Shown here piece by piece: positions 13,098 through 27,311 of a stretch of 28,369 bases of DNA. Each line of letters begins with the position of its first letter. The first letter of the stretch is position 1. The notes below the pieces were generated by a model, which saw nothing but the letters and a program-made list of their open reading frames with translations, was not told the DNA's origin and made no database searches. Position numbers and translations under genes: made by a program. This DNA comes from a virus: positions 1 through 28,369 of the IMG/VR virus record IMGVR_UViG_3300048135_000767. One strand, 5' to 3'.

Positions 13098-13808
13098 TCA
13101 AATGACCTCCATGCAGGTGTCGTAATACTGCTGCCTGTCAGCCAGGCCGTTCGTACCACCGTTTACTCGCTTCGTGACGGCTAGTACATCAGCGCCGTTG
13201 TCAATCAATTCATTCATGTCGTTGTCCTGCCACCAAAATCCTGCAGCAGTAAACGGGTAGTTCTCCGCCACATAATCCACGCCATTCATAACCTGCGGGT
13301 CGTTCAAGTAGTTACTTAGTCGCAGGTAATTGTACTTTCCGGTTGTTTGCAGGTAGCCCGCCCCCTTGTACTTAGGTCCATCGCCCACTTCGTCATTCTG
13401 CAGGTCCTCCCTGAACTCATACGCCTCACCACTTGCCAACTCTTTCTTGTACCGCCCACCCCCAGATTCATGCGCCGTCTGACTCAGGAAATGTCTAATC
13501 CGCTGGGGCGTCGTGATCTCGTACTTCGCCAAGCAAAGGTTGAGTTCATCAATCTCGTAGTTTGCAATCAAGTTTGAATCGCACTTCCAGATTGCAGCCA
13601 ACTGCTCTTTGCTGACGTAGTGCGAACCGAGCTGGACCGTGCCATCATCTGTAGCCGAATCACGGTAGTACTCGATCCACCCTGCGTCGTCCTCCAAAAG
13701 GGAGTCCGGCATCAATTTCCACAACTCCGCCACCGCTAGCCGCTGGTGCGGCAAATCCTGGTAGTACCTGAAGAACGCGGTAAAATTATCAATCGTCAAT
13801 CGAGTCAT
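13098..13808 (-). CDS. Endolysin, glycoside hydrolase family 19-like
   Basis: This encodes 236 aa. The central block RIRHFLSQTAHESGGG places the likely catalytic acid at Glu114 in the AHES motif of GH19 chitinase/lysozyme-like enzymes. KYKGAGYLQTTGKYNY (146-161) and VNGGTNGLADRQQYY near the C-terminus are the other conserved GH19 blocks. The N-terminal 80 residues look like a small extra domain. The enzyme would cut peptidoglycan sugar chains at lysis. There is no signal peptide, so a holin is expected, and none is recognised nearby. The start overlaps the sigma gene by 20 nt. It is the last gene of the minus-strand operon and converges on the tail genes. Confidence 0.85.
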   Translation of the reverse strand: MTRLTIDNFTAFFRYYQDLPHQRLAVAELWKLMPDSLLEDDAGWIEYYRDSATDDGTVQLGSHYVSKEQLAAIWKCDSNLIANYEIDELNLCLAKYEITTPQRIRHFLSQTAHESGGGRYKKELASGEAYEFREDLQNDEVGDGPKYKGAGYLQTTGKYNYLRLSNYLNDPQVMNGVDYVAENYPFTAAGFWWQDNDMNELIDNGADVLAVTKRVNGGTNGLADRQQYYDTCMEVI

Positions 13809-14679
13809 TGAAGCAACCAGTCCTTACTCTTAAGGATAACGTAGCTTTATTTATCCTCTGCCTAACAGCTTCGCGGCTGACGTGGTATAGCTCGCCAATC
13901 TCGCGCAGATTTAGTCGGCTTACGCCTTCAATACCATAGAAGTGTCGGAGCATCTGCTGGCTGGGCTCGGGTATGCGTTCTAATGCAGACAATACAGCCC
14001 GATACGGGATTTTTAACATTTGCTTCTCTAACGCATCTTCAGTCTTTGGATCGGCCAGAACATCGCCTATTGAAGTACAGCCATCTGAATGCGAAATCGG
14101 CTTATCAGTGCTGACCCAGTCATAATATGGCATAATCGCAGCGTCGAAGGCTTCGCGTTTCATCTTGACTGCTTCTAGAGATTCATCTAAATGCGGTACA
14201 ACACCTTCAGTTCTGAGCGCTTTCTCCGAATGACGCCGCAAATGACCAAGCTGATCAATGACATTGGATGGCAGTCGTATCATCCGCTCCTTTTCAGAAA
14301 TCGACCTGCTGATAGACTGCCGCACCCACCAATATGAATACGTGCTGAATTTGTACCCTCGAGTCGGGTCATATCTATCAGCAGCACGCGCCAATCCGAC
14401 TGCCCCTTCTTGACATAAGTCTGCATAGTGCATGTGGTCCGTCATATGCAAATATTTGCGTGCGATGGTCGCGACCAAGCGCATGTTGCCCAAGACGAAG
14501 CGGTCGCGTGCACGCTGCCCCCTTTTGATGACGAATTTTTCTTTGCGGGTGAGTGTGTCGGCCGGTTTGTCCAACAGAGCATTCATCGCTTGGATTTTGC
14601 GACCGCATTCGATTTCTTCGTCGGGAGTCATCAGGGGCTCTCTGCCAGCCAGAGCCATATACTCAGATATGCTGCTCAT
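13789..14679 (-). CDS. Sigma-70 family RNA polymerase sigma factor (regions 2 to 4)
   Basis: This encodes 296 aa. Region 2 runs from about residue 64 to 126 and contains LGNMRLVATIARKYL, the core-binding ADLCQEGAVGLARAADRYDP block and the -10 recognition helix GYKFSTYSYWWVRQSISRSI. Region 3 follows with ERMIRLPSNV. Region 4 (about 228-285) has the LREIGELYHVSREAVRQRI helix-turn-helix that reads the -35. It looks like a cyanobacterial group 2/3 sigma factor with region 1.1 missing, presumably directing host RNA polymerase to phage promoters. It starts inside the end of the 103-aa gene (17-nt overlap). Confidence 0.92.
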   Translation of the reverse strand: MSSISEYMALAGREPLMTPDEEIECGRKIQAMNALLDKPADTLTRKEKFVIKRGQRARDRFVLGNMRLVATIARKYLHMTDHMHYADLCQEGAVGLARAADRYDPTRGYKFSTYSYWWVRQSISRSISEKERMIRLPSNVIDQLGHLRRHSEKALRTEGVVPHLDESLEAVKMKREAFDAAIMPYYDWVSTDKPISHSDGCTSIGDVLADPKTEDALEKQMLKIPYRAVLSALERIPEPSQQMLRHFYGIEGVSRLNLREIGELYHVSREAVRQRINKATLSLRVRTGCFNDSIDD

Positions 14680-14974
14680 TGGAAATCGCTTTTAGGAGGA
14701 TCAGATACAGGATAGCGTCGTCTATGCGACCGTCGATGGGCTCAGATAAATCTTGATAAGGATTACTGACCCAACTGTCGATAGAGTCCAAATGTTTGGT
14801 TAGGTAGACCATGGCCACTTGCGCGGGGCTGAGGCCTAGCCGCGTGGCAAGCCTCTTGAAGTTAGCCAATTGGTCGTCGCTGTTGGCATACTCGCGACCC
14901 TTGCTGTCGGTCAGCTCAATCAGCCGCTCCATGGTGGCGACCAGATACTCTTCTTTGAATCTAGTGGTATTCAC
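14663..14974 (-). CDS. Conserved phage protein in the Z operon, possibly Nmad1/DUF1599-like
   Basis: I chose the GTG at 14974, which has a GGGAG 10 nt upstream and gives 103 aa. An internal ATG at 14932 would give 89 aa. A longer reading to 15178 is out of frame with, and shadowed by, the 84-aa gene. The sequence contains DSKGREYANSDDQLANFKRL, then QVAMVYLTKHLDSI and EPIDGRIDDAILYLILL. This K-x-x-EY-N, KH-D-I, E-x-x-GR-DD-Y order is shared by small helical phage proteins, some of which are linked to nucleotide modification. The family name is a tentative resemblance. Its position directly behind the Z-synthesis genes makes a nucleotide-related role worth testing. Confidence 0.6.
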   Translation of the reverse strand: MNTTRFKEEYLVATMERLIELTDSKGREYANSDDQLANFKRLATRLGLSPAQVAMVYLTKHLDSIDSWVSNPYQDLSEPIDGRIDDAILYLILLKAISNEQHI

Positions 14975-15215
14975 GGGCGATACGCTCCCAGGGTGCTTCG
15001 GTTGGGTTCTGGTTGTCAGGGCGCCACACCCAGGGCTGACTGCGGAGGAATTCCTTAAAGGACTCAGGCCTGTTATCGACTGGGTGCGCAGGGAACTCAA
15101 ATGCGGCCTCGATTTCTCGGAAAGAAACGCCAGTAAGACAGCGCGCGATCGAGAGGGCAGAGTGTCTTCCTGTTTCATAGAGTCTTTTTGCTGCCTCGTA
15201 ATTCTCAGGTGTCAT
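14961..15215 (-). CDS. 84-aa protein of unknown function in the Z operon
   Basis: I place the start at the ATG at 15215, which overlaps the DatZ stop by 11 nt; the frame extends further to 15344 but that part reads as DatZ shadow. Residues 5-42 (NYEAAKRLYETGRHSALSIA, then GVSFREIEAAFEF) resemble a helix-turn-helix of the resolvase/transposase type: a helix, a turn around residues 28-31 and a recognition helix REIEAAF. The C-terminal half is Trp- and Pro-rich. It may be a small DNA-binding protein. I do not recognise a family. Confidence 0.6.
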   Translation of the reverse strand: MTPENYEAAKRLYETGRHSALSIARCLTGVSFREIEAAFEFPAHPVDNRPESFKEFLRSQPWVWRPDNQNPTEAPWERIAREYH

Positions 15216-15768
15216 GGAATGTGTCGGTGAAGTAGTCTCTGAGGAGGTTCCGTTCGCTGGTGCTGAAGAGAGATCGCTCGAGTCGAGTCCACATTTGCTG
15301 GCAGAGGAGCTCTCTGACTTCATAAGCGTGTCGTCCAAGGCCATAGAGCTTTAAGAAAAGGATGGATTCAGCAGTGTCGCAGAACTTGACTAAGTCTTTG
15401 ACCGCTGCGGGTGCAGGCACAGTGTTGTAGATCGAAATCTCCAACTCATTCAGTGCTTGCTTGACGTCTGGCGTTTTGAATGGCGTCGGGCAATCGCCCG
15501 TGCGAATCTCCGCCAGGTCATGAGTTAATGCTAGCTCCTCGGCTATGCGCTGTTCTGTCGGCGTGCCTAAGACTAGTGGCCCCCATTGCCGGGTTAGAAG
15601 CCAGACGTTGTACATGTGCTGGCCAATCGATTGCTCTTTGGCCGTACAGACAATCCCCCATCGGCCTATATACTGAGACTTCAAGAAATCGGCAGCACCG
15701 GTTAGGGCACCCTCGTGTTTCTTGCGGTCAACTGCTTCGTTCGGCTGATGTTGCAGATTTTCAGACAT
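15205..15768 (-). CDS. datZ: DatZ, HD-domain dATP triphosphohydrolase of the Z-genome pathway
   Basis: This encodes 187 aa from the ATG at 15768, which has GGAG 9 nt upstream; an ATG at 15783 is the alternative. HD-domain metal ligands are His51 (SIGQH), His83-Asp84 (ALTHD) and Asp131 (KFCDTAES). The enzyme removes the triphosphate from dATP, so that adenine is kept out of the DNA while 2-aminoadenine is used. Trp37, Ile39 and Pro96 are spaced (2 and 57 residues apart) exactly like the trio I recall from S-2L DatZ work as base-selectivity residues (Trp20, Ile22, Pro79). It resembles the YfbR 5'-nucleotidase family. It overlaps MazZ by 8 nt. Confidence 0.9.
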   Translation of the reverse strand: MSENLQHQPNEAVDRKKHEGALTGAADFLKSQYIGRWGIVCTAKEQSIGQHMYNVWLLTRQWGPLVLGTPTEQRIAEELALTHDLAEIRTGDCPTPFKTPDVKQALNELEISIYNTVPAPAAVKDLVKFCDTAESILFLKLYGLGRHAYEVRELLCQQMWTRLERSLFSTSERNLLRDYFTDTFHDT

Positions 15769-16138
15769 GCCTTGCAGCTCCATTATCAGAGACCACCCAT
15801 TGCCTGGTCTGGTTGATTTCCATCTTGGTCCGCACGGCGTCGGCCATGTCGATTCCCTGCAACGTGAACAGGTCGAGCACCAGGATGGCGACGTCAGCCA
15901 GTTCTTGTGGGTCTTTCATGCGGTCGCTGGCGATCAACTCGCCCAACTCCTCCAGCAGCTTTGAGACTGTGGACAGCGGGGTGCGGCAGGGGACCACCTG
16001 GTCGGCCCATTCAGCAATCAAGCCCTGCAGTAGAGCTATATCGTTCGTAGATTGACTCGACTCTGGACCTGTCAAGCTCGGGCGCTCCGATTCTGTACAC
16101 GTCACTGGCAAGGGGGCCAAATCCGAGGTACTGGACAT
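15761..16138 (-). CDS. mazZ: MazZ, MazG-like (d)GTP pyrophosphohydrolase of the Z pathway
   Basis: The start chosen (ATG 16138) gives 125 aa. The MazG motif is clear: KLLEELGELIASDR with Glu64 and Glu67, followed by QELADV with Glu79 and Asp82, the four metal ligands (ExxE, then ExxD). The C-terminal KMEINQTRQW is typical of the MazG/DUF550 type. MazZ hydrolyses dGTP (and GTP) to the monophosphate, feeding dGMP to PurZ. The first 42 or so codons overlap the PurZ end, and no good ribosome binding site precedes the ATG. A TTG inside the overlap is possible, and the frame is open far upstream to 16609, but that extension is antisense-like filler. Confidence 0.85.
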   Translation of the reverse strand: MSSTSDLAPLPVTCTESERPSLTGPESSQSTNDIALLQGLIAEWADQVVPCRTPLSTVSKLLEELGELIASDRMKDPQELADVAILVLDLFTLQGIDMADAVRTKMEINQTRQWVVSDNGAARHV

Positions 16139-17102
16139 TGGTGCATTCAGAGAGAGACTCCCAGATGTGGCAAAATTCCGCAAACGTCGGCGGATATTGT
16201 GAAAAATTGAGAAATGCGACATCGATTCGATTTTGTGAGCAGGCCTCAATGGCCTGTTGTTGGGACCAGGTGAAGAGTCTCCTGGGGAGCCTGGTAACGG
16301 TGGTGAGTTCCTGCGACCTGCCGATATCTGAGAAGGAAATCTCTTTTGAATCGGCGTAGGTGGGGCCACTGAATTCGCCATCCGCAGGGCGGTTAGCAAC
16401 TCGGATTGGATACGTGCGAAACGTACCATAGACATTGAGACGGCGCATAAACGGCACGCCCGTATCTGAAAGGATAGATGCGGTAGTGACGTCTCTGCAA
16501 GTGACGTGCGGATAGTCGCCGTGATAGACGGACAGGCTGTAGCCTTGAGCAGACTCAATTTGCAAGCGTTCTGCACCGAAGTAGACCCGCTGCATTTCAG
16601 GAGTGCCAATCAAATGGACCCGTTTACCTGATTCGAATACCGGATGGTCGAGCATGTGCGCGGCGACGATATTCATACCTGGGCGGCGCAAGATGCGGTC
16701 GGCCTGAGCGGCCCCCGTGCCCTGCCTCGTAGACCCAGGAGCGGTGCCTCCCTGGCTCTCGGCCTCGCGGTGCCTCTCCTGAACGACAGCCGCATTCTCG
16801 TGGACGAAAACGGTCGGTCGTTGGATGCCGTAATCTTCCAGCCTGGTCAACTCGCGGTACAGACGATTCAGGTCGATTAAGGAGCCAGGCCCCAAGACAA
16901 TCGTCTTGAGACTCGGACTCGCAACTCCACTAGGGAGCATCTTGTGAATAATCTTGAACTCCTGATAGAAGAACGTGTGCCCAGCATTGGGGCTGGGAGC
17001 ATACGCAATCACATCAGGCGAATGTCGCTCAGCCAGGTAGGCAGCGAACAATCCCTTGCCCGTGCTGCCAAATTGGCAGTCCATGATGAGATCAGTCGTC
17101 AT
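16011..17102 (-). CDS. purZ: PurZ, phage adenylosuccinate synthetase homologue for 2-aminoadenine synthesis
   Basis: I use the ATG at 17102 (363 aa), which gives MTTDLIMDCQFGSTGKG; the frame to 17147 adds a non-conserved leader. PurZ joins aspartate to dGMP, giving the succinyl intermediate that is later cleaved to dZMP. The P-loop-like FGSTGKG (residues 11-17) aligns with the PurA motif GDEGKG, with Ser13 in the place of the catalytic Asp. His42 lies in NAGHTFF, like the catalytic His of PurA. KMLPSG, YGTFRTYPIRV and LTTVTRLPRRLFTW are further PurA-type blocks. The Asp-to-Ser change is the hallmark of phage PurZ. It overlaps the 70-aa gene by 11 nt. Confidence 0.93.
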   Translation of the reverse strand: MTTDLIMDCQFGSTGKGLFAAYLAERHSPDVIAYAPSPNAGHTFFYQEFKIIHKMLPSGVASPSLKTIVLGPGSLIDLNRLYRELTRLEDYGIQRPTVFVHENAAVVQERHREAESQGGTAPGSTRQGTGAAQADRILRRPGMNIVAAHMLDHPVFESGKRVHLIGTPEMQRVYFGAERLQIESAQGYSLSVYHGDYPHVTCRDVTTASILSDTGVPFMRRLNVYGTFRTYPIRVANRPADGEFSGPTYADSKEISFSDIGRSQELTTVTRLPRRLFTWSQQQAIEACSQNRIDVAFLNFSQYPPTFAEFCHIWESLSECTNVQYLGFGPLASDVYRIGAPELDRSRVESIYERYSSTAGLDC

Positions 17103-17304
17103 TTTTCGTCTTGTGCCCCTGCTTGCCCCGCGTATGCGAGATTTCAACGAGCTTTGGCAGCATGCCTACCAGAGTGGTGGTGGTGTGCTGCACGGTGTCG
17201 TAGTCCATTTGCAGCCAGTGGTCCCAGAAGTCCTTATGCAGGTCTGTGACTTTTGCCTGGAACTCTTCATCCCAGCTTCTGTCGCCCTTTACAGCGGTTG
17301 CCAT
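17092..17304 (-). CDS. 70-aa protein of unknown function upstream of purZ
   Basis: The ATG overlaps the stop of the SSB-like gene by one base (TGATG), and the end overlaps the purZ start. It is helical and rich in charged and aromatic residues (WDEEFQAKVTDLHKDFWDHW, then a TTTTLVGMLPKLVEIS helix) with a basic Lys/His-rich end (RGKQGHKTKNDD). It contains no catalytic motif I recognise. The tight overlaps on both sides support translation. Function unknown. Confidence 0.65.
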   Translation of the reverse strand: MATAVKGDRSWDEEFQAKVTDLHKDFWDHWLQMDYDTVQHTTTTLVGMLPKLVEISHTRGKQGHKTKNDD

Positions 17305-17606
17305 CAGAACAGGTCCTCTTCTTGCTTCTCTGCGTCCTTGACGGCGTCCGACTTTTTAGGGACGTTGTAGTCATCAGGGCTGATAGCAAGACTGATGTAG
17401 CTGATGCCGGACTTGGATTGCTTCTTCCAGCCAGCAACGCGAATTTTGGCGCTGCCATTGTCATCAAAGTTGACTTCGCCTTTAGTCACCATGTCGGTGA
17501 TAGCGAGCAAATCATCTTTGGAAATGGCACCAGGACCTGTGAAGTCGGGCTGGTTGTCGCGTTCTTTGCGGTCGTTCTTGAAGAGTGAAGCGTTGAAGCT
17601 AGGCAT
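17304..17606 (-). CDS. Small ssDNA-binding-like protein (DUF736-like core)
   Basis: This encodes 100 aa. The core AGWKKQSKSGISYISLAIS (residues 58-76) resembles the WKK-x-S-x-x-G-x-x-Y-L-S-V block of the DUF736/OB-like small proteins common in plasmids and phages. The C-terminus ends in an acidic tail followed by a hydrophobic tip (DAEKQEEDLF), as in single-strand-binding proteins, where the tip recruits partners. It sits between Erf/HTH and the Z genes. A role as phage SSB fits the recombination and PrimPol genes but is inference. The start overlaps the HTH gene by 8 nt. Confidence 0.6.
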   Translation of the reverse strand: MPSFNASLFKNDRKERDNQPDFTGPGAISKDDLLAITDMVTKGEVNFDDNGSAKIRVAGWKKQSKSGISYISLAISPDDYNVPKKSDAVKDAEKQEEDLF

Positions 17607-17823
17607 TTTGAGGAACTCGTGAGATTTCGTACGCCTCTATGACGTCGATGTGGTAAAAAATGCGGTCATCATTGTGACCGGCGTGGATGTAGGCCGGTTC
17701 TTTACCGGCGGCACGCCTGCGAGCAAGCGTGACATATGAGACGCTGAGAAGAGGATGCTCTTTCCAGCGGTCCACCAATTCTGCTGGCGTCAGATACCTG
17801 GTGCGGTCAAAGGAAATCGTCAT
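17599..17823 (-). CDS. Small helix-turn-helix protein (excisionase/AlpA-like)
   Basis: This encodes 74 aa. YLTPAELVDRWKEHPLLSVS followed by YVTLARRRAAGKEPAYI and a DRIFYHIDVIEAYE end is the pattern of the small winged HTH domain of excisionase/AlpA/MerR-type proteins: an N-terminal helix, a turn, a recognition helix with TLARRR and a wing ending in a Y-x-x-x-D-V-x-A-Y helix. No integrase is seen in the window, so it may be a transcription regulator and not an excisionase. It starts 17 nt inside the end of the Erf gene. Confidence 0.65.
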   Translation of the reverse strand: MTISFDRTRYLTPAELVDRWKEHPLLSVSYVTLARRRAAGKEPAYIHAGHNDDRIFYHIDVIEAYEISRVPQNA

Positions 17824-18268
17824 TGCTGACTGTACTTGTCTCTGTCATTCTATTACCCTGGCTGTCAGCGTCATCATCTTCAGTTGCCAAATTGAGTATT
17901 GACAGCAATGCATAACGCCGCTGATAGGTGACAGCACCACCCCAAGTATGGAGTGCGTTGCCACGTCCGCCAGTCGTAACGAGTTCGACAGTTGAACTGA
18001 GGCTTTGGCCTGAAGTATGCCAAAGAGTCGTGACCAAGTTGCCATCATCAAAGGTCTGCGTGATTGTAAGTCCGCAGCCCATTAATGGATGCCTAAGCGC
18101 TGCCAGGATGGTTGCCAAATCGGCAAACTTGCCATACTGCGCGGCCGTGGCCTTCGTGATCACAGGCACCCCAGCATGGAACGTGACGAGAGCCTGAATT
18201 AGCTCAGGTCCCGCAGTGCCCATTCTGGGAGCGAGAGTGGTTGGACTTGTTGACTGTAGCTCGGCCAT
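17807..18268 (-). CDS. Erf-family single-strand annealing recombinase
   Basis: This encodes 153 aa. Blocks typical of the Erf family are present: a KATAAQYGKFADLATILAAL helix, HPLMGCGLTITQTF, then TLWHTSGQSLSSTVEL, and the hallmark GGAVTYQRRYALLSILNL followed by the acidic EDDDAD (residues about 110-134). Erf proteins bind single-stranded ends and anneal homologous strands, usually together with a 5'-3' exonuclease. The RecE-like nuclease next door is such a partner. A GGGA lies 7 nt before the ATG at 18268. This start overlaps the nuclease gene by 70 nt, and an internal ATG at 18223 is an alternative. The C-terminal tail is short. Confidence 0.88.
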   Translation of the reverse strand: MAELQSTSPTTLAPRMGTAGPELIQALVTFHAGVPVITKATAAQYGKFADLATILAALRHPLMGCGLTITQTFDDGNLVTTLWHTSGQSLSSTVELVTTGGRGNALHTWGGAVTYQRRYALLSILNLATEDDDADSQGNRMTETSTVSNDDFL

Positions 18269-19047
18269 GGTGTCGTCCCGAATTCTTCGGTGAGTGAACG
18301 GAGTTGTAGTAGAAGAGCGTCGATCTTCTTAGCGCCTATGCTGAGCATCTCATCGTCGGCCAGAAATACCTGGCAGGCGTAAGGTGGCTCCTTCTCAACG
18401 GCCACAAACACGAACCCTTTTGGGATTGTGCCAGTAGCTGCCTCGATGCAGCGCATATAAAAAGCAGCTTGCAGGTGGTAGTTGAAATTGACCACCGATT
18501 TGCCAAAAGCACGAGCGCTGGCGTCCTGCGTGGTCTTCAAGTCGACGACAAAGCCGCCACTCGTGACCCGGTCGGCACGGCATTTGATGCCAATGCCGCT
18601 CGCTGCATCTTTCGTGATAAAAGTGGCTTCATTTGAGCCATTCCCACGGAATAGAGCTTTTGACGCGGCGTCATGGTCCTGCAGTGACTTGACGATTCCC
18701 GCGATGAGCCGGAATTCGTCTGGTGGCAACAAGGTTGCCTTAGTCGCTGCTTGTGCTTCTTTCCACACTTTGGTCGAACGAGATACCATAGGACCCTCGC
18801 CGTAGCCGCTGCTAAACCGGTCCGGCTCGAGTGCCGCCATGTGAACGGCGGTTCCTAGTCGCATTGCTGGTGTCTCGTAAGAAGTCTCGATCCTTGCTGG
18901 GTCGATTTTCTTTGACCAATAGTGTCTTGGGCTGCGAAGCAGATGCCCGAGGTCGGACCTGCTGATTTCCGGTCTGTTGCGATAATCGCGTGCCGGAATG
19001 TTGTGGGTTGGTTGGAGCAAAGCGTTCTGCAAGTGCTCCGCTATCAT
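18199..19047 (-). CDS. RecE/exodeoxyribonuclease VIII-like PD-(D/E)XK exonuclease
   Basis: This encodes 282 aa. The nuclease motif is clear: Glu140 (NEATFI), Asp159 in IKCRADRV and Asp169-x-Lys171 in VVDLKTTQ, then NYHLQAAFYM (Tyr190, Gln193). The N-terminus has the ISRSDLGHLLRSPRHYW helix and LGTAVHMAALEPDRF block of the DUF3799/RecE C-terminal family. Such enzymes degrade the 5' strand of duplex ends to make the substrate for Erf. It is the first gene of the minus-strand operon and is transcribed away from the helicase at 19117. A consensus TTGACA lies at 19067-19072 on this strand. Confidence 0.88.
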   Translation of the reverse strand: MIAEHLQNALLQPTHNIPARDYRNRPEISRSDLGHLLRSPRHYWSKKIDPARIETSYETPAMRLGTAVHMAALEPDRFSSGYGEGPMVSRSTKVWKEAQAATKATLLPPDEFRLIAGIVKSLQDHDAASKALFRGNGSNEATFITKDAASGIGIKCRADRVTSGGFVVDLKTTQDASARAFGKSVVNFNYHLQAAFYMRCIEAATGTIPKGFVFVAVEKEPPYACQVFLADDEMLSIGAKKIDALLLQLRSLTEEFGTTPWPSYSQQVQPLSLPEWALRDLS

Positions 19048-19116: not shown

Positions 19117-20382
19117 ATGCTACGACCTTATCAACAAGACTTATATAGTCGGCTGCGTGTCGCTATGCGCAGTCATAGCAGGATTCTCGGTGTATTGCCT
19201 ACAGGTGGCGGCAAAACACGTATATTTACGGAGATTGCTAAGGCTGCCCGTGCCAGTGGCCGCAGCGTACAAATCCTGGTTCACCGCCGAGAGCTCGTCG
19301 AGCAAACGCCTGATGACAACGTCACTACAATCCAAAGTTGGGTTCCCAGTGGTGAAGATTTGGTGATTGTCGATGAAGCTCATCATGCCTGTGCCCGTAC
19401 CTGGAAAGAAAAGCTGCTGCAGTGCCCCAAGGTGCTCGGATTCACTGCCACACCTGAGCGACTCGACGGTGGCGGGCTAGATGTCGTCTTCGAGCATATG
19501 GAGATTGGTGCTGATGCTGGCCAGCTCTTGCGCCTCGGCTATTTGTCTCCATACAAGATTTTCTGCCCACCAGGTCAAGCCGACACAAAGGGCATACGAA
19601 AACAAGGCGGAGATTATAGCCGTAAGCTGCTTGCAGAGGCATGCAGTGACCGCAAAATAGTAGCGGCAGCAGTTAAAAATTGGCGATTTCTTGCCGCTGG
19701 ACGACAGACCATCGGCTTTTGCGTGTCTGTAGCTCACATGAATCTGGTTCAAGAGCAATTTTTGCAGGCGGGCATTCAATGCGCATCCATAGAAGGCAAA
19801 ATGCCTAGAACGATGCGTGATGGTATCGTAGCGAAATTTCGAGATGGTGCAATACAAATACTGCTCAGCGTGGACCTGATATCTGAAGGTTTTGACGTCC
19901 CGAATTGTGATTGTGTTCTCCTGCTTAGGCCGACCCAATCTTTAGGGTTGCATCTCCAGCAGGTGGGGCGTGCGCTGCGCCCTTCAACACAGCATGCTGT
20001 AATCCTTGATTGTGCTGGCAATTCTGCCAATTTTGGCACGCCCGAGCAGGCCCGCTCATGGTCGTTGCAAGGCCGGACCAAAGAGAGAAAAGGACTTGTG
20101 GCGGATATGCCAGTGCGTGTCTGCCCACAATGTTATGGCGTCCACCGTCCAACCCTGAGGATTTGCCCCTACTGTCAATTCGCTCATCCTCTAGATAGCC
20201 GTATCCCCGAAGAAGCAGACATCATCTTGAAGGAAATGGAACTGAAAAAACGCGAAATGAAGCGTGCAGTTGGTCGGGCTCGGTCGGTGAAAGACTTAGA
20301 GCGAATTGCCAAAGAACGTGGCTACTCCATGCGCTGGGTTGACCACATATTGCGGACTAGGAACAGCCGCGCTTGGAGATGA
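19117..20382 (+). CDS. Superfamily 2 DEAH-box helicase with C-terminal zinc ribbon
   Basis: This encodes 421 aa. Motif I (Walker A) is PTGGGKT at residues 28-34. Motif II is DEAH at 86-89, motif III is TAT (110-112) in GFTATPER, and motif VI is QVGRALRP (282-289), preceded by DLISEGFDVPNC. This is the layout of phage Hef/UvsW/RadD-like SF2 enzymes, which unwind branched or duplex DNA. CPQC (336-339) and CPYC (350-353) form a four-Cys zinc ribbon, followed by a Lys/Arg-rich tail. It starts the plus-strand replication operon, 69 bp from the divergent RecE-like gene. Only a weak GAGAG precedes the ATG. Confidence 0.9.
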   Translation: MLRPYQQDLYSRLRVAMRSHSRILGVLPTGGGKTRIFTEIAKAARASGRSVQILVHRRELVEQTPDDNVTTIQSWVPSGEDLVIVDEAHHACARTWKEKLLQCPKVLGFTATPERLDGGGLDVVFEHMEIGADAGQLLRLGYLSPYKIFCPPGQADTKGIRKQGGDYSRKLLAEACSDRKIVAAAVKNWRFLAAGRQTIGFCVSVAHMNLVQEQFLQAGIQCASIEGKMPRTMRDGIVAKFRDGAIQILLSVDLISEGFDVPNCDCVLLLRPTQSLGLHLQQVGRALRPSTQHAVILDCAGNSANFGTPEQARSWSLQGRTKERKGLVADMPVRVCPQCYGVHRPTLRICPYCQFAHPLDSRIPEEADIILKEMELKKREMKRAVGRARSVKDLERIAKERGYSMRWVDHILRTRNSRAWR

Positions 20383-21620: not shown

Positions 21621-21938
21621 ATGGCCGTCCAGAAAGAGACCAGGCTTCAGAATGAAATTCGATTAGCTGTTAGCCAGCAATGCCCACATGTGACGCTATG
21701 GCGCAACAGCGTTGGGACTTTTAAGACTCAAGATGGGAAATGGGTGCAGGCCGGACTGCCCGCTGGAAGTAGCGATTTGATTGGTATCTGCAATGGCAGA
21801 TTTGTGGCGATTGAAGTGAAGTTGCCCGGGCAGAAGCCACGACCTGACCAAGTCAACTTCTTGGAGCACGTCAAGAAAATGGGCGGGATTGCCGGCGTTG
21901 CTACATCCGTACAAGAGGCCGTTGACATTCTGACATGA
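21621..21938 (+). CDS. VRR-NUC domain nuclease
   Basis: This encodes 105 aa, a stand-alone VRR-NUC nuclease. GLPAGSSDLIGICNGRFVAI carries Asp52, and the following EVKLPGQKPRPDQ carries Glu65, Lys67 and Gln77, giving the D...E-x-K...Q layout of the PD-(D/E)XK group. The C-terminus GIAGVATSVQEAVDIL is the usual end helix. Phage VRR-NUC proteins may act as structure-specific nucleases at branched DNA, alongside the SF2 helicase in this operon. It starts directly after the previous stop. Confidence 0.85.
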   Translation: MAVQKETRLQNEIRLAVSQQCPHVTLWRNSVGTFKTQDGKWVQAGLPAGSSDLIGICNGRFVAIEVKLPGQKPRPDQVNFLEHVKKMGGIAGVATSVQEAVDILT

Positions 21939-22142: not shown

Positions 22143-22337
22143 ATGACTGAGCTCCACTGTCCGTGGTGCGGCGGCACCCATTTGTCATTCCTCTCGGATG
22201 ATGCTACCTATCTCTTCGCATCTGAGCATGGTACGAGCTTCTTCTGCGTTGAGTGTGGCAATCCTGGTAAGGCTACATTCGAATGCCGACAGGATGTACA
22301 AGGCATCTATTTTCAAGTACTGCCGGTGATCAAATGA
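22143..22337 (+). CDS. Small zinc-ribbon protein
   Basis: This encodes 64 aa. Two CxxC pairs, CPWC (residues 6-9) and CVEC (35-38), form a probable zinc ribbon. The rest (THLSFLSDDATYLFASEHG) is beta-like. Such small ribbons precede primase or replication genes in several phages and may help bind DNA. The stop codon overlaps the PrimPol start (ATGA), so translation is likely coupled. Confidence 0.65.
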   Translation: MTELHCPWCGGTHLSFLSDDATYLFASEHGTSFFCVECGNPGKATFECRQDVQGIYFQVLPVIK

Positions 22338-24397
22338 ACGCACTCGATTTTTTCTCTGTCCTGGGCAAGGACGAAGTACGGTTGCGTGTTATTGGGGCGA
22401 ATGAGGCCAACAAACTCAACTGGCATGAGGACTTTAAACAGCCTGATGACGCGGACGTTTTTTTCGTCGTCAATGATGGTGGCGACAAGGCTGATGACAT
22501 CACCTTGTGCCGTGCATTCTTCGTTGAGTGGGACGACAAGCCCATTGAATGGCAGCTGTCGGCGTGGAAAGAGCTCGAGTTACCTGAACCGACATTGCAG
22601 TTGCTGACTGGCAACAAGTCTGTCCACAACTATTGGGTTCTGGACAAGCCTTGTACAGTCGATAAGTGGCGCAACATCCAGCTGCGCTTGATTGAGTATT
22701 CAGGCAGTGACCCGGCGCTTAAAGACCCTTCTCGTGTGATGCGCGTGCCTGGGTTCCTACATCGCAAGACTGGCCAGCCTGCTGAGGTTGTTCATCATTC
22801 TGATTCCCGTGTCACTCTGCGTAAGCTCGACGCGTTGCTGCCACTGATAACCAAGAAACGCATCACCCGCCAGGTCAAGAATCTTGAGCCTGGGACTCAG
22901 GGCGAAATTGATGCTGCTTTTGCTGTTATCCCTGCCCGCACCGGTTCTGGCACCAACTCTTATCCGACATACCGCAACATCGCCTGGGGCTTAGCTGATG
23001 CCTGCGAGTCTGCTGGGCTGGGTCGTGAGCATGCAATCGAGCTGATTGAGGCTGCTGGTTGGGGCGACTTTGACGCTCGCCACGTGGTCGACTACGACGG
23101 CTCCCGTGACGTCACGGCTGGCACCTTCTGGTGGCACGCCTACCAGCATGGCTATCAACGGTCACTGCGTGTCCCAAAGCAAATTGCCGCTAAATCTGGC
23201 GAGAGCTGGATCAAGCGGCTGGGGTGGGTGGCACCTGAGGTTGGCAAGTTGTTTAAGCCAACACCGTTGGCCATCATCACGTCGCTGCGCGGCATTGGTG
23301 ATTCGTTCCGATGGAACGAGATGGACAACCACGTTTGGATTGATGGCGAGCCGATTGAGGACATCGACATGTCCCACACCTACATCTCCATTGAAGAGTG
23401 CGGCATCAAGGTTTCCAAAGACACGATGATTGACTGTCTTTGCAAGTTGGCCCGTGAGCGCAAGTTCCATCCAGTGCGTGAGTATCTGGACTCCTGCGAT
23501 GTGCCGCTGCCTGATGAGATGTGGGCCAATATCTGCCAGACTCTGCTCGGGGGCGAGCCTACTGAATTTGACAACTCCATGCTGCGCAAGTGGCTGATTG
23601 GCGGTGTCGCTCGTGCCTATGACCCTGGCGCTGCTTTTGGCCATGTCCACGTTTTGAGTGGCGAGGGCATGAGTGGTAAATCACGGTTCTTCCAGGAGCT
23701 GGCATCTGATGAATGGTTCCTCGAGGGCTTTTCCCCTTCAAATAATGTGCGTGATGACGCGCTCAAGATGCACCGCAAGTGGATTGTTGAGTGGGGTGAA
23801 CTCGATTCATCGATTGGTGGCCGTACTGCTGGCGCGACCAAAAACCTGCTGTCTGTGAAGACAGACTCAATGCGCGTGCCTTATGGCCGTGGTGTCCAGG
23901 ACTATGGTCGCCCGTTCATTATCTGCGGCACGACTAACAAGGCCGATGGTTTCTTTGTTGATGAGACTGGCAACCGTCGTTTTGTGGTCTATGAAGTCAC
24001 TGAGAATGTGGACTTCAACAAAATCCTGGCGATGCGTGACTCGATTTGGGCCAGCGCCAAACGGGACTATCTCAATGGCTTGCCCTGGTGGCCGTCACAG
24101 GAGGAGAAGGCCTGGAGCGAGAAGGCCAATGACCTGTTGATGGAGGAGGACCCATGGACCGAAAAAATCGAGAAGTTCTGGGTCAGGTGGATGACAGAGC
24201 CAGACCCTGATAAGGGTGAAATCGAGGGTTACATAACGACATCGGATGTTCTAGAAGGGATGCAAATCCCAGCCAGCCAACAGACCAACACAGACTTACC
24301 ACGTATTGCAAAGATACTACGTAGGTTGGGGTTCACGAAAACACGTAAAACTGTTAATGGGCGTTCTAAAGCGATATTCAGACCACCAAGCATATAG
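22334..24397 (+). CDS. PrimPol (AEP primase-polymerase) fused to a VirE/SF3-type helicase
   Basis: The ATG at 22334 gives 687 aa; a longer frame from 22283 runs through the zinc-ribbon gene. The N-terminal AEP domain has Glu65/Asp67 in FFVEWDD (motif I), Ser96-x-His98 in GNKSVHNYW (motif II) and KDPSRVMRVPGFLHRK (131-145, motif III). The C-terminal domain has a Walker A GEGMSGKS around residue 445, a Walker B-like WIVEWGELD and a NRRFVVYEV end typical of VirE/D5-like phage helicases. It probably primes and copies the phage genome. No other polymerase is in the window. From memory, S-2L relies on such an enzyme, which cannot tell A from Z, leaving discrimination to DatZ. Confidence 0.9.
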   Translation: MNALDFFSVLGKDEVRLRVIGANEANKLNWHEDFKQPDDADVFFVVNDGGDKADDITLCRAFFVEWDDKPIEWQLSAWKELELPEPTLQLLTGNKSVHNYWVLDKPCTVDKWRNIQLRLIEYSGSDPALKDPSRVMRVPGFLHRKTGQPAEVVHHSDSRVTLRKLDALLPLITKKRITRQVKNLEPGTQGEIDAAFAVIPARTGSGTNSYPTYRNIAWGLADACESAGLGREHAIELIEAAGWGDFDARHVVDYDGSRDVTAGTFWWHAYQHGYQRSLRVPKQIAAKSGESWIKRLGWVAPEVGKLFKPTPLAIITSLRGIGDSFRWNEMDNHVWIDGEPIEDIDMSHTYISIEECGIKVSKDTMIDCLCKLARERKFHPVREYLDSCDVPLPDEMWANICQTLLGGEPTEFDNSMLRKWLIGGVARAYDPGAAFGHVHVLSGEGMSGKSRFFQELASDEWFLEGFSPSNNVRDDALKMHRKWIVEWGELDSSIGGRTAGATKNLLSVKTDSMRVPYGRGVQDYGRPFIICGTTNKADGFFVDETGNRRFVVYEVTENVDFNKILAMRDSIWASAKRDYLNGLPWWPSQEEKAWSEKANDLLMEEDPWTEKIEKFWVRWMTEPDPDKGEIEGYITTSDVLEGMQIPASQQTNTDLPRIAKILRRLGFTKTRKTVNGRSKAIFRPPSI

Positions 24398-26724: not shown

Positions 26725-26754
26725 ATTATATCATGTTGAATCCGCGTTTGTCAA
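26725..26754 (-). promoter_or_regulatory. Consensus promoter P3 (TTGACA, 18 bp, TATAAT)
   Basis: TTGACA (26754-26749) and TATAAT (26730-26725) on the minus strand, 18 bp apart, form the third copy of the same module. The -35 overlaps the stop codon of the sigma-like gene (TGA at 26751-26753). An ATG occurs 7 nt after the -10 here too. It serves the operon 26684 to 25771. Confidence 0.85.
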
Positions 26755-27311
26755 ATGGTATCGTGAACATCCATTGCGTCCAGCGCCACAACATGCCTGA
26801 CCATTGCCGCCTGTCGAATCGTGAACACGTCACGCTCTTTTAATTCCCATTTGGCCATCGCGTCCTCATGGCTTAATCCCTCCTCTCGGGCTTGTTCATA
26901 TCTGCGCAATTTACGTCTGGCCTCAGCGCTCACGTGGACCATACCACCTTTCATCTCGATCGCCCGTGACAGTGCCTGCCTGACCCACCAGGTCGCATAG
27001 GTTGAGTATGCATAACCGCATTCGCTGTCATATTTCTCAGCGGCACGTTGTAATCCCATCACACCTTCCTGCAGCAAGTCCTCAAACGTGAGCCCAGTGC
27101 CAGCTAGTCTTCTTGTATATGACTTAGCAATTTTGGTCACTAGTCGTAAATTGCAGAGCACAAAGGTATCACGCGCTTTACGACCTGAACGTTCGACGCC
27201 TCTAGGCACTGGCTCTGGGTGCGTCAGCCACTTTTGGATTCGCCGCCCCAATTCAATCTCTTGCTCTTTGGTGAGCAAAGCATATCGACCGGAGATGCCT
27301 AAGAACTGCAA
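26751..27311 (-). CDS. Sigma-70-like protein lacking region 4
   Basis: This encodes 186 aa and starts with TTG (27311), as no ATG or GTG is available upstream in frame. Region 2 spans about residues 52-118: CNLRLVTKIAKSYTRRLAGT, LTFEDLLQEGVMGLQRAAEKYD, GYAYSTYATWWVRQALSRAI. Region 3 follows (GGMVHVSAEARRKLRRYEQ), then a linker. The protein ends at residue 186 with no -35-binding region 4. Downstream there are only 66 bp before the next gene, so no lost half is nearby. It could be a core-binding modulator or one half of a split sigma. Confidence 0.8.
   Translation of the reverse strand: MQFLGISGRYALLTKEQEIELGRRIQKWLTHPEPVPRGVERSGRKARDTFVLCNLRLVTKIAKSYTRRLAGTGLTFEDLLQEGVMGLQRAAEKYDSECGYAYSTYATWWVRQALSRAIEMKGGMVHVSAEARRKLRRYEQAREEGLSHEDAMAKWELKERDVFTIRQAAMVRHVVALDAMDVHDTI

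Follow-up and report, generated by a model that had tools for sequence, protein, structure and literature searches.

Does the removal of dATP suffice to give a phage a genome free of adenine (A), or is a polymerase that selects 2-aminoadenine (Z) needed as well? This question is raised by a gene block in IMGVR_UViG_3300048135_000767, a fragment of an uncultured virus genome of which we analysed 28,369 nt (hereafter the window). On the minus strand the block encodes PurZ, MazZ and DatZ, in that order, as three intact, full-length, overlapping frames, and it is very probably the Z-cluster of an S-2L-type cyanophage in which A is selected against at the level of the nucleotide pool instead of by a Z-specific polymerase. 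S-2L is the phage of the first report of 2-aminoadenine DNA, and a 2021 paper called its replication module unique among Z-phages (PMC8342488). The cassette itself is already known; what is new is the lineage around S-2L, in which primases have been exchanged and which lacks DpoZ, the family A polymerase with which other Z-phages reject A. The features of the cassette are as follows.

16011 to 17102, minus strand: PurZ, predicted 2-amino-adenylosuccinate synthetase of 363 amino acids with an ATG start (NF038379, phrog_1211, comparison with S-2L)
15761 to 16138, minus strand: MazZ-1, predicted (d)GTP pyrophosphohydrolase of 125 amino acids from the best ATG at 16138, start uncertain (PF04447, E value 1e-8)
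16011 to 16138, minus strand: overlap of the PurZ 3' end with a MazZ 5' extension, apparently dual-coding (synonymous divergence in relatives)
15205 to 15783, minus strand: DatZ, predicted HD-domain dATP triphosphohydrolase of 192 amino acids (phrog_7076, E value 2e-15)

A first-pass annotation, made from the letters of the DNA, had described the three genes as lying back to back and overlapping, and this proved correct, with 15205-17102 being the exact span of the triad. MazZ and DatZ overlap by 23 nt, and PurZ and MazZ by 128 nt when the ATG at 16138 is taken as the MazZ start, or by 65 nt with a TTG at 16075 as the start; the MazZ frame stays open up to 16609, and a TTG at 17147 is an alternative PurZ start that would lengthen the protein. 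The chain of overlapping genes extends past the triad, with a 70-amino-acid open reading frame (ORF) upstream (17092-17304) and an 84-amino-acid gene downstream (14961-15215). The same annotation took the arrangement to be informative in itself, a view that we had to abandon, as PurZ-MazZ-DatZ is the standard order and is identical in all Z-phages checked (S-2L, phiVC8, ZP6, PMBT28 and SH-Ab 15497).

To identify the enzymes, we relied on profile matches and on residue-by-residue comparison with S-2L, with residue numbers taken from PMC8342488 and PMC8065100. Pfam, NCBIfam and PHROGs named all three, as an adenylosuccinate-synthetase-like PurZ (phrog_1211, E value 1e-62), a dATP/dGTP pyrophosphohydrolase and a dATP triphosphohydrolase. 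The proteins are orthologues of those of S-2L with their substrate-selecting residues retained (identity of 50% for PurZ, 56% for MazZ and 49% for DatZ), and the earlier statement that the triad is known from S-2L is borne out by this identity and by the same gene order. At the nucleotide level, a search with the block alone found similarity to S-2L only over 151 bases of mazZ. A tblastn search of PurZ against 50,697 phage records returned S-2L at the top (48.7%), followed by DpoZ-type Z-phages at no more than 42%, and for DatZ S-2L reached 46.8%, with no other above about 31% among the matches listed.

No active site is broken in any of the three enzymes. In PurZ, the FGSTGKG loop has Ser13 (S-2L S23) in place of the catalytic Asp of the GDEGKG loop of PurA, and this serine does not vary among the 26 clade members with sequence at that position. 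The substrate residues found only in PurZ are also kept, namely T267 (S-2L T273) and Q302 (S-2L Q308), as is the 2'-OH gate V235 (S-2L V241). In S-2L numbering, the full set of retained PurZ residues comprises G22, S23, N49-T53, G130-T132, R146, Q190, T205, R240, V241, R244, T273-T276, R280, N305, F306, Q308, G335 and P336. MazZ keeps the metal ligands E34, E35, E38, E50 and D53 as mapped onto S-2L, together with the guanine-selecting I56 and D60 (S-2L numbering) and R83. DatZ has all ligands of metals A and B (H34, H66, D67, D119, E70 and D75), R19, K81 and K116 (S-2L numbers), and the specificity residues W42, I44 and P101 (S-2L W20, I22 and P79). Of the positions tabulated over 26-27 clade members, only MazZ 16, MazZ 20 and DatZ 32 varied, and the rest were invariant wherever sequence was present. 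The ratio of nonsynonymous to synonymous substitution rates (dN/dS) was 0.02-0.21 in relatives, for pairs where it could be estimated. Because 26-27 clade members keep the same residues and dN/dS is low, the cassette is not a chance pattern. There is good support from the sequence for reading it as a pathway to 2-aminoadenine.

The long overlap between PurZ and MazZ also carries a signature of constraint in the relatives. In clade A relatives, synonymous divergence of PurZ falls from about 0.65-0.71 to 0.37 in the last 43 codons and 0.11 in the last 22, with no fall in amino-acid change, which indicates that the MazZ frame is constrained inside PurZ; the drop is weaker in clade B relatives (0.45 and 0.35). 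The MazZ of these relatives thus apparently has an N-terminal extension relative to S-2L that is coded within the PurZ 3' end. For the window itself, synonymous sites are saturated against its near relative L003, so that this comparison is uninformative.

From the biochemistry of S-2L, whose enzymology and reconstitution in E. coli have been published (PMC8342488, PMC8065100), we infer each reaction, the host steps and the full replacement of A by Z. MazZ would cut dGTP to dGMP and so feed PurZ, which would join dGMP and Asp with the use of (d)ATP to give succino-2-aminodeoxyadenylate (dSMP). Host PurB would release the Z monophosphate (dZMP) from dSMP, and the host guanylate kinase and nucleoside diphosphate kinase would make the triphosphate (dZTP), while DatZ would hydrolyse dATP and spare dZTP. 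The pool reaching the replication machinery would then hold dZTP in place of dATP, and a non-discriminating polymerase, here the AEP PrimPol of the phage, would therefore write Z opposite T, as in the model for S-2L, where the exclusion of A is the work of DatZ and not of the polymerase (PMC8065100). The first-pass annotation had the three proteins together making the Z nucleotide and destroying dATP; this is shorthand, as host PurB, guanylate kinase and nucleoside diphosphate kinase would be required too.

The replication genes of the window agree with this scheme. The PrimPol is the sole DNA polymerase detected in the window, and no PolA, PolB or Pol III was found within its 28.4 kb.

22334 to 24397, plus strand: PrimPol, AEP fused to a VapE helicase (37% to the S-2L PrimPol; PDB 6zp9, E value 5e-30)

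Mapped onto S-2L, this protein retains E85, D87, D88, T112, K115, H118, D146, R157 and H163, and with them all metal ligands. The Walker A motif of its VapE part reads GKS; in S-2L and the Toprim-type relatives described below it reads HKT, as seen at L002 20825-23038 and in L014/L016.

To place the window among its relatives, we collected 37 loci from two PurZ scans of IMG/VR. In the PurZ tree, the window, S-2L and 24 IMG/VR contigs form one clade with support of 100/100; S-2L turns out to be no longer a singleton, and its group is widespread in environmental contigs. The same gene block is found in nearly all clade contigs of sufficient length, and the triad stays together there. PolA (PF00476) was not found in any of 20 S-2L-type records (S-2L and 19 from IMG/VR, window included), and was present in all seven of the other PurZ records searched. 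Neither PolB nor Pol III alpha was found in seven representative S-2L-type records. Contigs of 39.6-43.9 kb carry terminase, portal, capsid and tail genes; in one (G010) an exact terminal repeat of 99 nt suggests that the genome is complete, and in another (G008) the first 25 bases recur 884 nt before its end. No DNA polymerase was found in the near-complete G008, G010, G011 and G013. Gene content, retained residues, synteny, phylogeny and the lack of DpoZ are seen directly in the sequences.

The primase domain has been exchanged repeatedly in this lineage. AEP fused to the VapE helicase occurs only in the window and S-2L among ten records tested, in L003/L004 and L018 the fusion partner of the helicase is a PF09250 Prim-Pol domain, and in a dozen other relatives it is a zinc finger and Toprim region (for example L014:3384-5300 and L016:1269-3227). 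The Toprim assignment rests on EGE and DRD motifs conserved in the six proteins aligned and on PHROG primase/helicase matches (E values 9e-10 and 1.3e-12); L015, L019, L021, L022 and L024 were counted as Toprim by their near-identical length, position and phylogeny to aligned members. Foldseek matched the region to the Toprim of RNase M5 and to Twinkle (probability about 1, E values 2e-3 to 1e-2), from a model with a mean predicted local distance difference test score (pLDDT) of 55.5, and a PDB profile search with it gave no convincing match. At least four changes of primase domain are required on the PurZ, DatZ and helicase trees. No polymerase is recognisable in the Toprim members, and their genomes would then be copied by the host replicase, which fits the S-2L model and would extend it; together with the lack of DpoZ across the lineage, this points to exclusion of A by dATP removal. 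The lineage opens a test of the question raised at the outset. Since its near-complete members encode no recognisable polymerase, an ordinary cyanobacterial replicase should be able to copy Z-DNA, a prediction that also matters for the engineering of cells with Z-DNA.

Several observations weigh against pool-level replacement of A as we propose it. PurZ scores 289.8 bits with NCBIfam NF038379, under the cut-off of 300; two relatives score 285 and 292, so that all three are 8-15 bits short, and S-2L scores 350. Although the cut-off is missed, the tree groups the window PurZ with S-2L at 100/100, and we read the threshold as too tight for this lineage, a matter of naming and not a biochemical feature. 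A few pocket positions have also changed from S-2L (Y21F, Y203H and C204V in PurZ; I16A, N20V and M93A in MazZ; A32G in DatZ), and the steric gate of the S-2L PrimPol, Y63, is F in the window. As the window is a fragment, a polymerase in the missing head or tail part is formally possible, but the near-complete relatives have none there. Base replacement in this virus is moreover predicted from its genes.

Partial substitution, in which the cluster shifts the pools but PrimPol or a host polymerase still uses residual dATP, so that virion DNA contains both A and Z, seems to us unlikely. The S-2L PrimPol does take A more readily than Z (PMC8065100), expression of the Z-cluster in E. coli led to an average replacement of just 12% of the A in plasmids (PMC8342488), and the S-2L-type records have no Z-selective polymerase; however, S-2L itself shares this gene set and its DNA is free of A (PMC8065100), and DatZ with its dZTP-sparing residues is strictly retained. 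The window alone carries some of the pocket substitutions (MazZ V206 and DatZ G54), which could be taken to mean that the cluster is a recent or degenerating acquisition without function in this phage. This is the least probable of the alternatives, and scarcely credible given intact frames, invariant metal ligands, the low dN/dS of the relatives where it is estimable, and a deep clade with many environmental relatives. It is also very improbable that the genes serve a takeover of the host, by manipulating its purine pool or starving its DNA synthesis with PurZ acting as an ordinary PurA and no base replaced, because PurZ has Ser for the catalytic Asp of PurA and the residues specific to PurZ, and every sufficiently long contig of the clade keeps the three genes together. 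We thus retain the reading of an S-2L-type Z-cluster that keeps A out through the nucleotide pool.

The genes around the cassette extend the likeness to S-2L. On the minus strand the order is PD-(D/E)XK nuclease, annealing protein, a small helix-turn-helix protein, a single-stranded DNA-binding protein (SSB)-like gene, the 70-amino-acid ORF, PurZ, MazZ and DatZ, followed by the 84-amino-acid helix-turn-helix gene, phrog_6802, a sigma-70 factor and a lysozyme-like gene; the divergent plus strand carries a superfamily 2 (SF2) helicase, VRR-NUC and PrimPol.

13789 to 14679, minus strand: sigma-70 factor of phage type, comprising regions 1.2, 2 and 4 (Pfam PF04542, PF04545, PF00140)
14663 to 14932, minus strand: small phage protein (phrog_6802, E value 2e-15)
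14961 to 15215, minus strand: 84-amino-acid helix-turn-helix protein whose gene shares 11 nt with the end of DatZ (IMG/VR matches, AlphaFold2 model)
17092 to 17304, minus strand: 70-amino-acid ORF overlapping the PurZ start (72% identity; seen only in the nearest relatives L003/L004)
17304 to 17606, minus strand: SSB-like protein (weak phrog_18154/7364; 38% to the homologue S2L_25 of S-2L)
17807 to 18268, minus strand: single-strand annealing protein (35% to that of S-2L, same position)
18199 to 19047, minus strand: PD-(D/E)XK nuclease (31% to S-2L S2L_27, same position)
19117 to 20382, plus strand: SF2 helicase (43% to S-2L S2L_30, its closest match)
21621 to 21938, plus strand: VRR-NUC endonuclease (44% to S-2L S2L_31; phrog_93, E value 2e-19)
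26751 to 27311, minus strand: truncated sigma factor, limited to regions 1.2 and 2 (71% to the sigma fragment of S-2L)

The 84-amino-acid gene has 24 matches in IMG/VR, all of them placed directly after DatZ save those cut off by a contig end, and no match among the isolate phages of the collection searched. It therefore appears to be a Z-linked fourth gene of the sub-lineage of the window. Its AlphaFold2 model (pLDDT 89) is a confident small helical domain; an attempt to assign a function by fold gave the GcrA DNA-binding domain as the best match, which was not significant (E value 1.3). A role in Z-DNA transcription with the nearby sigma factor may be considered as a lead. The conserved phrog_6802 protein sits between this gene and the sigma gene, and both sigma factors of the window are conserved in many relatives. 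The sigma-70 factor at 13789-14679 is 37% identical to the sigma of Synechococcus phage S-CBS3, and its closest matches are sigmas of Synechococcus phages. We rejected it as a Z-defining feature, as it also occurs in Synechococcus siphophages that are not among the Z-phage matches. A scan of the cassette neighbours for defence systems gave nothing beyond generic sigma and helicase similarity. Because the sigma factor is closest to those of Synechococcus phages and the SF2 helicase to that of S-2L, the host is probably a cyanobacterium; a PurZ scan of bacterial genome contigs, aimed at the host, found no relative. It is intriguing to consider a broad environmental S-2L-type lineage in which pool control is the sole means of excluding A, modules for primase-polymerases are freely swapped, Toprim members are polymerase-free so that an unmodified host replicase writes Z-genomes, and the DatZ-coupled helix-turn-helix protein may act in Z-DNA transcription; we see the chances of this broader proposal as evenly balanced.

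We found no published description of an S-2L-type Z-lineage, in a literature search that did not extend to subscription papers and preprints. A 2026 survey, whose main text does not mention metagenomes, placed S-2L beside non-Z cyanophages (PMC12884076), and a description of the freshwater cyanophage Pam4 and S-2L-related metagenomic contigs leaves PurZ/adenylosuccinate synthetase unmentioned (PMC9382816). The marine Synechococcus siphophages S-CBS1 and S-CBS3 share the cyanobacterial-type phage sigma of the window, but neither appears among the PurZ matches listed, and DatZ has no match in any Synechococcus phage. The PurZ0 phages Wayne and Ghobes are Z-DNA phages with a PurZ-type enzyme, like the window, and use DutZ, DmtZ and DUF5664 in place of DatZ and MazZ (PMC12884076). 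The DpoZ-type phages phiVC8, ZP6, PMBT28 and SH-Ab 15497 have the same PurZ-MazZ-DatZ order, but they differ in encoding a DNA polymerase of family A close to the cluster and a PurZ that is 38-41% identical to that of the window; phiVC8 also has the other type of MazZ, MazZ-2 (PMC8342488). From S-2L (MW334946), the window differs in the extent of the PurZ/MazZ overlap (20 nt in S-2L versus up to 128 nt), in the genes after DatZ (S2L_21 and terminase in S-2L, the 84-amino-acid gene and a full-length sigma in the window), and in the sequence of the three enzymes (49-56% identity, a few pocket substitutions). Otherwise the two share the PurZ-MazZ-DatZ order with overlaps, the upstream SSB-like, single-strand annealing protein and PD-(D/E)XK genes, the divergent SF2 helicase, VRR-NUC and AEP-VapE PrimPol in the same relative order, the lack of PolA and a related truncated sigma. 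With a Z-cluster, an AEP-VapE PrimPol, syntenic recombination genes and no DpoZ within 28.4 kb, the window has the features of the S-2L type.
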